The notes beneath the pieces are model-generated. The model made no database searches. It saw only the letters and a program-made list of their open reading frames with translations, and was not told the origin of the DNA. From Lachnospiraceae bacterium (GTDB lineage Bacteria; Bacillota; Clostridia; Lachnospirales; Lachnospiraceae): DNA of 64,000 bases. This document shows, one piece after another, positions 48,149-48,826 of the stretch. A program made the position numbers and the translations under genes. Position 1 is the first letter of the stretch; each line of letters starts with the position of its first letter. The stretch is from positions 124,001-188,000 of the forward strand of contig CAJTDN010000003.1 in NCBI GenBank assembly GCA_910574865.1. The letters are read 5' to 3'.

Positions 48149-48557
48149 TTACTTTTGAAACAAGTCCGCATGTGTCCCAGTATCAACAAGTGAATCTAGC
48201 GTCGGTGTACAGAAGGCAACACGGTCGATGAAGGGCATATTTCCCCCCTTTCGTCGTTACTTTCACTCCGCGTACGTCCTTGTACGCGTCGCTCAAGTGC
48301 CTTGAAAGGGGGGAAATATGCCTCTTCACGACTCTGCGACCTCACCCATAGGGATTTCAAGGGTTTTCAAGAAAGATGAATGAGGCGTACAAGGACGTAC
48401 GCCGATTGAAGATGACGCTGAAAACCCTTGAAATCACATGGGCTGAGGCGTGTTGCCCTCCGTACACCGACGCTAACAAAGAGATATCAAGCCCGCGCTT
48501 CTTAGCAATTTTCAAGGATTTTTTGAATTTCTCCGAAAGAACCAACTCGTATCTCAT
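48149..48557 (-). pseudogene. YafQ/RelE-type toxin gene split by a palindromic element
   Basis: The N-terminal part (48557-48476) reads MRYELVLSEKFKKSLKIAKK then RGLDISLL, the start of a YafQ-type mRNA interferase. The C-terminal part lies beyond the element at 48196-48149 and reads DSLVDTGTHADLFQK and stop, the normal end of these toxins (TG(S/T)H(A/S)DLF). About 45 residues of the middle are missing, including most catalytic residues. The gap is occupied by the 279-bp element at 48197-48475. The first part overlaps the antitoxin gene by 4 bases as in intact loci. Confidence 0.85.
48197..48475. repeat. 279-bp nested inverted-repeat (cruciform) element
   Basis: Outer arms: TAGCGTCGGTGTAC + AGAA + GGCAACACG (48197-48223) mirrored by CGTGTTGCC + CTCC + GTACACCGACGCTA (48449-48475). 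Inside are two stem modules. Module A: a perfect 19-bp stem (48234-48252 with 48304-48322) capped by CGCGTAC-GTCCTT-GTACGCG (48269-48288). Module B: a perfect 17-bp stem (48353-48369 with 48419-48435) capped by GGCGTAC-AAGGAC-GTACGCC (48384-48403). The two cap loops, GTCCTT and AAGGAC, are complementary. No coding capacity, no transposase, no clear target duplication. Confidence 0.85.
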
Positions 48558-48826
48558 ATATCCAAATCCTCCAACGCCTCTGAAAAACTGCCATACTTCT
48601 TCGTATTTGAATCATGGCTAATCCGTTTTGCCTCTTCCATGGCTTCTATCACTTCGGGCTTAAATTTCGGATACTTCACTTCGAAAGGTATTCCGTCATG
48701 TAAAATAACCTGCTTTAAAAACATGTTAATCGCCTCGGACAAACTCAAGCCCAAGCCTTCCAAAAATTCCACCGCTTGTTTTTTCGTCATCTCGTCTATT
48801 CTTACTTACGTCGATACTGTTGCCAT
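48554..48826 (-). pseudogene. RelB/DinJ-type antitoxin with TAA at codon 7
   Basis: ATG 48826 after AAAGGAGGTGCTTATT reads MATVST, TAA (48806-48808), then VRIDEMTKKQAVEFLEGLGLSLSEAINMFLKQV. Antitoxins of this family start MATVSTYVRID, so the stop replaces one Tyr codon. Reinitiation at ATG 48790 would give 78 residues lacking the first strand of the RHH DNA-binding domain. The C-terminal toxin-wrapping part (AKRISHDSNTKKYGSFSEALEDLDI) is intact. Confidence 0.82.

Follow-up and report, generated by a model that had tools for sequence, protein, structure and literature searches.

A multicopy, two-armed mobile element with a conserved Y-shaped fold in a Lachnospiraceae genome and its relatives in the Clostridia

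Introduction

A 64,000-nucleotide stretch of the genome of a Lachnospiraceae bacterium (assembly GCA_910574865.1, contig CAJTDN010000003.1, positions 124,001 to 188,000; hereafter, the window) contains a toxin-like gene that is interrupted by a 279-bp structured insertion, which we call the window element. A first-pass annotation made from the letters of the window described the insertion as a non-autonomous mobile element with a folded single-strand structure, possibly mobilised in trans. The locus thus raises the questions of what kind of element this is, how it moves and what its fold is for. We find that the window element belongs to a real, widespread family that works like a miniature inverted-repeat transposable element (MITE) of the IS630 type, and that a kept internal fold and fixed non-canonical arm tips set this family apart.

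The window element folds as a Y and is present in many copies

The window element runs TAGCGTCGGTGTAC...GTACACCGACGCTA and consists of an outer stem followed by two arms, each of which is a long stem with a cap hairpin (Table 1). The perfect 19-bp stem of arm 1 (48234-48252/48304-48322), the perfect 17-bp stem of arm 2 (48353-48369/48419-48435) and the cap hairpins are all present where the first-pass annotation had placed them. The outer arms, described there as 14 + 9 bp, contain these matching blocks within 27 nt each, with bases matching in runs of 14, 2 and 9 that are interrupted by two mismatches. Single-stranded DNA folding of both strands, a check which that annotation had proposed, returned the Y at about -96 and -98 kcal/mol; compared with 200 dinucleotide shuffles this corresponds to z = -14.0 and -16.1, and 0/200 shuffles folded as well on either strand. 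The loops GTCCTT and AAGGAC are complementary, as had been pointed out, because arm 2 is the inverted homologue of arm 1, and their complementarity is therefore not a feature independent of the arms. A kissing device formed by the two loops was rejected as independent evidence, since the same cap is found on each arm's own purine-rich strand. Three listed open reading frames (54, 66 and 81 aa) overlap the element, and no transposase gene lies inside it.

Table 1. Features of the window element and of the interrupted gene, in positions of the window
Feature	Position	Strand	Basis
Two-armed Y-shaped mobile element, whole, including TA ends	48197..48475 (279 bp)	.	Identical copies L002/L003, 37 full-length copies, covariance model R1
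TA target dinucleotide, left	48197..48198	.	TA at both ends in 35/37 host-genome copies; single-TA empty site inferred at L012
TA target dinucleotide, right	48474..48475	.	Same basis as left TA
Outer stem 5' arm (terminal inverted repeat)	48197..48223	+	27 nt, 93% complementary to 48449-48475
Outer stem 3' arm (terminal inverted repeat)	48449..48475	+	Pairs with 48197..48223
Arm 1	48224..48332	-	Alignment A1 columns 31-142; A.G/G.A oppositions form on minus strand
Apical hairpin of arm 1, plus-strand cap GTCCTT	48270..48287	-	GCGTACGTCCTTGTACGC
Arm 2, inverted homologue of arm 1	48340..48448	+	Inverted repeat pair; A.G/G.A oppositions form on plus strand
Apical hairpin of arm 2, plus-strand cap AAGGAC	48385..48402	+	GCGTACAAGGACGTACGC
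N-terminal piece of interrupted toxin-like gene	48476..48557	-	Weak matches; no Pfam family at E 0.01
C-terminal piece of interrupted toxin-like gene	48149..48196	-	Read from sequence
RelB/DinJ-type antitoxin gene, upstream of interrupted gene	48554..48790	-	PF04221 E 2.7e-12; TIGR02384 E 2.6e-17

The host genome contains at least 40 long matches to the window element, a lower bound, as 40 of 137 candidates were scored (all 40 were fetched); 37 are full length, with 95-100% identity, and two (L002 and L003), which lie on two further contigs, match the window copy letter for letter. These copies have different flanks and the element has relatives elsewhere, so that the sequence is neither unique nor an ordinary part of toxin loci, the two outcomes that the first-pass annotation had held to be fatal to its proposal. 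A search of the whole genome with the outer arm, as proposed there, found the 14-base end at 178 places at ≤1 mismatch, compared with 0 for a reversed control, which is more than 40 copies require. Forty further loci, drawn from the first 100 of these 178 places, were read and showed remnants, either cut at varied distances from one end or lacking the middle, the shortest of the latter being 24 bp long. Between two orthologous loci with the same flanks, L229 and L238, the middle was lost in place in L238. The remnants and this in-place loss indicate that full copies insert and later decay. The family of the window element is therefore multicopy, mobile and recently active and, with its terminal inverted repeats and no transposase gene, the window element has the make-up of a MITE, in keeping with the non-autonomous, folded element first proposed.

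Elements end in TA and duplicate it at an interrupted pglZ gene

TA is present at both ends of 35 of the 37 full-length copies in the host genome and of 37 of the 47 full-length copies found elsewhere, the latter figure being favoured by the way in which ends were picked. At one locus (L012, C1:132404-132682 of the host genome), the element interrupts a BREX pglZ gene. Compared with the PADLOC profile PDLC02564, the first gene piece matches up to profile position 387 (residue 227/228, E 2.3e-5) and the second from position 389 (E 1.4e-87). When the pieces are joined with exactly one TA kept, the frame is open over all 150 codons that the test allows in each direction; otherwise it is open for 17 and 20 codons. 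Because the profile match is nearly continuous and only a single TA keeps the frame open, a 2-bp TA duplication occurred at this site. The TA target with 2-bp duplication of an IS630-type MITE is thus found at one coding site. In addition, the open frame before this element contains a match to the start of PglX, which would fit a fusion of pglX and pglZ by a deletion.

The one-armed relatives described below frequently lie in CTAG. Among the 25 of 31 one-armed elements in which TA could be anchored at both ends, C precedes the TA in 17 and G follows it in 17, with both in 12, giving CTAG. CTAG is a recorded IS630 target (PMC2170065, according to titles cited there). Two-armed elements have C before and G after the TA in 5 and 7 of 54 cases (8 and 12 of 36 in the host genome) and thus show no CTAG preference. 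Since either end can regain CTAG or TA on insertion, tandem arrays are possible; adjacent elements with one common TA were observed at L022, L027, L031, L239, L274, L287 and L288. A stretch at L125 was searched in the host and five related genomes, and gave element matches and no flank match beyond the host genome; at the orthologous loci L096, L155 and L159 the element is present in all three genomes.

Relatives come in one-armed and two-armed architectures

The motif GTTACTTTCNCTCCGCGTACG was found in 73 stretches of genome contigs, all titled as Lachnospiraceae-type or as uncultured Clostridia or Eubacteriales. After truncated, short and low-scoring loci were dropped, 47 full-length elements of 274-284 bp remained from 21 other organisms, including Mediterraneibacter glycyrrhizinilyticus, with several copies per organism. 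A pattern search for the motif, allowing one mismatch, hit 10 of 397 Lachnospiraceae-family genomes. R1, a covariance model made from 26 elements, identified relatives in 39 of these 397 genomes and in 27 of 391 class-level genomes, the host genome being counted in both; these are lower bounds, as four candidates were scored per genome under stricter filters. On the window itself R1 scores 285.6 bits at 48197-48475, the sole place with E ≤ 0.1, a score that is not independent of the model because the window copy is among the 26 sequences that built it.

Many relatives are built differently. Of those found by R1 in family genomes we read 31 one-armed elements, from which all one-armed statistics derive; they are about 156-167 bp long and have a single central arm flanked by outer repeats of a quite different kind, such as CTAGTACACCGAATAATAAGTAACC or TAGTGCTCCATCCGGCC. 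Two-armed elements are thus about 277 bp and one-armed elements about 160 bp in length. In one-armed elements (for example L286-L288) the outer stem has a second internal loop, CTTGYCT opposite CTGCGT, that resembles the arm base with its sides swapped, and one locus (L258/L346, G416:C1:3175601) is a half element in which one arm of the two-armed type is followed by unrelated AT-rich DNA.

The two-armed architecture extends beyond the family. We read 11 class-level matches, from 11 of the 26 other genomes with a match, which belong to five other families and have little sequence in common with the window copy while spanning 273-278 bp; these loci were found with a structure model, which favours shared architecture with little shared sequence. 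Their predicted folds comprise an outer stem of 21-27 bp and exactly two arms of 105-115 nt in 8 of 11 cases, and the other three (L382, L385 and L387) have more branches. Of the motif-matched elements, 46 with a length of 274-281 bp were folded, and each of them forms a Y whose outer stem has 15 pairs or more.

Plasmids and phages showed no similarity to the window element at E 1e-3, and the two-armed motif matched 0 viral contigs. A looser one-armed pattern matched 38 viral contigs, one of which (L322) contains an element according to the covariance model, the other 37 giving no match at E 0.1. This one-armed element (L322:1277-1440, IMGVR_UViG_3300010280_000276) has CTAG at both ends, and the viral contig that carries it is a possible vehicle between hosts.

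The fold is conserved through compensated changes

Conservation of the fold was examined in an alignment (A1) of 26 sequences, comprising the window copy and 25 of the 47 full-length relatives. Standard pairs make up 97.1% of 2444 cells, compared with 30-45% when partners are slid by 1-3 columns, although the paired-cell figure is raised over these controls because the structure was derived from A1 itself. Changes on both sides occur in 49 of 94 pairs, compared with a mean of 27.2 in shuffled alignments (0/500 as high), and in the outer helix 11 of 25 pairs changed on both sides. Mean column identity is 0.77-0.80 in the lower stems of the arms, 0.89 in the outer stem and 0.92-0.94 at the arm tips. 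Palindromes and inverted repeats can, however, stay complementary through template switching and homogenisation, and compensation alone is therefore no proof of function.

Arm tips carry fixed A.G/G.A oppositions

The most conserved part of the arms does not follow standard pairing. Arm 1, the reverse complement of arm 2 and the single arm of one-armed elements align to one motif, whose positions we number pair by pair from the cap hairpin towards the arm base, along the purine-rich strand. In the 83 arms examined, which are not independent lineages and which come from Lachnospiraceae-family elements (class-level arms were compared by fold), positions 2-3 and 6-7 hold A.G and then G.A nearly throughout. 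At positions 2, 3, 6 and 7, respectively, the counts are 25, 26, 25 and 24 of 26 for arm 1, 23, 24, 23 and 24 of 26 for arm 2, and 29, 31, 30 and 29 of 31 for one-armed elements. The pattern recurs at positions 9-10 in arm 2 (23 and 24 of 26) and in one-armed elements (26 and 22 of 31), where arm 1 is Watson-Crick paired. Position 12 is C.A in 80/83 arms and position 13 is G.A in 76/83, while positions 1, 8, 11 and, in part, 4 vary, mostly as Watson-Crick pairs. Every A.G/G.A step reads 5'-GA-3' on both sides, an arrangement that can form sheared pairs.

A.G/G.A oppositions arise only when one particular strand folds on itself; the complementary strand would give T.C and C.T. In two-armed elements this purine strand is the minus strand for arm 1 and the plus strand for arm 2, so that each strand of the element holds one such arm. 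Because the fixed oppositions exist only in a self-folded strand, each arm appears to work as a folded single strand. The arm tips also argue against template switching as the explanation of the compensated stems, and our best reading is that this deeply kept fold is maintained by selection. That the same fold recurs in other Clostridia in different letters points to some function of the folded shape itself.

Whether that strand might act as RNA can be approached through wobble pairs, an asymmetry that is suggestive only. The outer stems of the 47 two-armed copies contain 67 G.T and 71 A.C oppositions. Within A1, G.T and A.C number 13 and 18 in the outer stem, 42 and 16 in arm 1 (26 of the G.T cells being one invariant pair) and 17 and 11 in arm 2. 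One-armed outer stems, read on the purine strand, have 52 G.T compared with 28 A.C (P 0.0097, ignoring relatedness; n = 27, after L285 was skipped and 3 redundant sequences were dropped from the 31). Balance in two-armed and bias in one-armed outer stems accord with the strands on which the purine-rich sides of the arms lie.

Some IS630-type elements have ends like those of one-armed elements

Genes for IS630-type transposases (PF13358, DDE_3) occur in 38 of the 397 family genomes, 34 of them above the family cut-off. One locus, L328, is a complete IS630 element, C-TA-GTGTACTGACATATTGATAT...-TA-G, whose end type is that of the one-armed elements; its two open reading frames match NF033545 at 126.4 bits (cut-off 100) and, below the cut-off, at 41.7 bits. 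At the IS630-type transposase loci L327, L330, L331, L368, L371 and L376, one end or more differs from one-armed ends by no more than 3 mismatches; L330 and L331 come from genome G298, which also contains the one-armed elements L286-L288. None of the 35 DDE_3 loci examined has an arm. The IS630 elements of G014, G438 and G441 were considered as partners and rejected, their ends being unrelated to the window element.

No long autonomous copy with the ends of the window element was found among the listed end places of the host genome, where partners were sought within 400 bp; at L088 and L195, whose facing ends are separated by more than this, the distant end is that of a mini-copy of its own. 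Likewise, the facing end pairs listed for the complete Claveliimonas bilis genome span 24-279 bp and include no long autonomous copy.

A probable trans-mobilised MITE and its alternatives

We consider it probable that these elements are non-autonomous, MITE-like DNA transposons that insert at TA, duplicate the TA and owe their movement to an IS630/Tc1-mariner-type transposase acting in trans. The putative transposase type of the two-armed elements is suggested by the TA duplication together with the match between the ends of their one-armed sisters and IS630 elements. The folded strand, or an extruded cruciform, may bring the two ends together or recruit a factor, and either would make the element a better substrate for transposition, which is the role that we prefer for the arms.

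Several results weigh against this account. The end of the window element is absent at ≤2 mismatches from all 35 DDE_3 loci examined, and the 3-mismatch matches at L350, L354, L357 and L365 lie away from any repeat pair found. Of 14 two-armed carriers, 10, among them the host and C. bilis, have no PF13358 match, and the same holds for 18 of 20 additional carriers, chiefly of one-armed elements; several of these genomes are drafts, in which repeated elements can drop out, while that of C. bilis is complete. Elements (39 genomes) and DDE_3 (38 genomes) co-occur in 6 of the 397 family genomes (P = 0.15). Taken as a whole, the open-frame test of 111 joined sites is undecided, with the 47 rows listed favouring one TA in 16 cases, none in 14 and two in 12, with 5 ties, and long open runs also arise without a single TA (none at L119, two at L114). 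Finally, correction of palindromes could likewise yield compensated changes in the stems.

The absence of DDE_3 from most carrier genomes tested would suit a different kind of enzyme. An HUH/Y1-like one, such as serves REP/REPIN or PATE elements, would recognise the arm as a folded single strand and need the outer repeats only to pair. In its favour, too, are the conservation of arm tips, with outer repeats that change from lineage to lineage but remain self-complementary, and the presence of one purine-strand-type arm on each strand. We nevertheless regard this as unlikely, given the TA duplication at the pglZ site and, in the one-armed class, the CTAG preference and the ends shared with IS630; to our knowledge, none of the three is expected of HUH enzymes. 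If the conserved strand acted instead as RNA, transposition would merely spread a mobile structured RNA gene. A fold with compensated changes and conserved non-canonical helices would fit, as would the G.T excess on the purine strand of one-armed outer stems, but the purine strands of a two-armed element are opposite, so that no single transcript has both, and G.T and A.C are about equal in two-armed outer stems. The window copy has no promoter- or terminator-like site. With Rfam 15, no element exceeded a gathering threshold in 1001 bases of the window or at 12 loci, mostly one-armed; only two flanking tRNAs passed, and the best sub-threshold match was to a microRNA model at 32.3 bits, compared with the 88 needed. 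An RNA gene thus seems quite improbable.

Least probable, in our estimate, is an ordinary MITE with a neutral palindrome, in which intrastrand template switching keeps the stems and the arms are alike through recent spread between species. Inverted repeats can, as is generally known, be homogenised, and base-paired folds are described as common in MITEs (PMC2229807, PMC3049150). Such correction would, however, erase A.G/G.A oppositions, yet these are kept at fixed positions in most of the 83 arms, and class-level relatives keep the architecture with little of the sequence, an outcome that the structure model used to find them favours.

Returning to a trans-mobilised transposon, a more tentative extension, possible though doubtful, is that the one-armed (about 160 bp) and two-armed (about 275 bp) elements form one class-wide superfamily. 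The conserved information would then be the folded single strand, that is, an A.G/G.A arm on a covarying stem or a pair of them in inverted orientation at a three-way junction. Lineages would have interchangeable outer repeats, and what the mobilising complex, or a host factor common to the elements, recognises would be this folded nucleic acid, not double-stranded end sequence alone.

Comparison with known elements

In REP/REPIN elements with their RAYT transposases and in the PATEs of IS200/IS605, two hairpins in inverted orientation are proposed to be recognised in the form of folded single strands. We know of no reason to expect TA duplication of them; insertion in that group occurs without target duplication, whereas the element at L012 duplicated its TA. 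Closer parallels exist among MITEs, and the likenesses and differences that follow are drawn from published descriptions, in the portions available to us. RUP (repeat unit of pneumococcus), the MITE of IS630-Spn1, is likewise short, non-coding and tightly folded with duplicated TA termini, and its mobilisation in trans by the IS630 transposase has been proposed (PMC2229807, PMC3049150). It differs in being 107 bp long and streptococcal, with no functional DNA motif reported in a review, whereas the elements here have one or two long arms with fixed non-canonical tips and occur class-wide. CIR elements of Caulobacter and Brucella also have TA termini and a two-armed secondary structure kept between species (PMC2229807). 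They are described, however, as about 110 bp long and alphaproteobacterial, with GANTC at one terminal loop and no terminal inverted repeat, whereas the window element has a 27-nt terminal inverted repeat and caps GTCCTT/AAGGAC, its one GACTC lying near the centre linker, outside the caps. The Correia/NEMIS elements of Neisseria resemble the elements here in their terminal inverted repeats, TA termini and size variants with and without an internal part (PMC2229807); they measure 107 or 155 bp, with 24-bp repeats and, in some, an IHF site (PMC10969869), and no Y fold is described for them in these portions. IS630/ISY100, of the Tc1-mariner/IS630 group, has a TA target with duplication (PMC2170065). 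Here the likeness extends to the CTAG preference and to the ends that Lachnospiraceae IS630 elements have in common with one-armed elements; the difference is that they code for a transposase, and the 35 DDE_3 loci have no arm. Open-access literature on MITEs together with Lachnospiraceae, IS630, conserved secondary structure, three-way junctions or tandem G.A pairs yielded nothing on these elements.

MITEs are usually viewed as accidental leftovers of insertion sequences, kept for their ends alone. Here, the internal fold persists from genus to genus, and several Clostridia families have an architecture of near-fixed length, while end sequences change. This makes it possible to test whether selection can act on a fold as one part of a parasitic DNA, and whether DDE transposition is helped by single strands that fold. 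The elements also interrupt genes (a toxin-antitoxin member here, pglZ elsewhere) and leave many truncated remnants.

The interrupted toxin-like gene

The gene split by the window element had been called a YafQ-type toxin, which is plausible given the adjoining RelB/DinJ-type antitoxin gene (Table 1), though the weak matches of its N-terminal piece fall short of proof. The best matches of this 28-residue piece are two designed proteins (E 0.071 and 0.22), followed by 2otr ('hypothetical protein HP0892', E 0.44) and 4nrn ('metal-bound toxin', E 0.53), both of which we take to be YafQ-like. Since a simple insertion at TA removes no coding DNA, the coding DNA missing from this gene calls for a second event, which may have been a further deletion, for example through recombination between two nearby copies. 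The YafQ-like gene would be one target among many. Elements inside or at the edge of a toxin-like gene in toxin-antitoxin pairs, as read from the flanks, are found at window positions 48197-48475, at L032 in the host genome (C3:303868-304146) and at L121 in An138.
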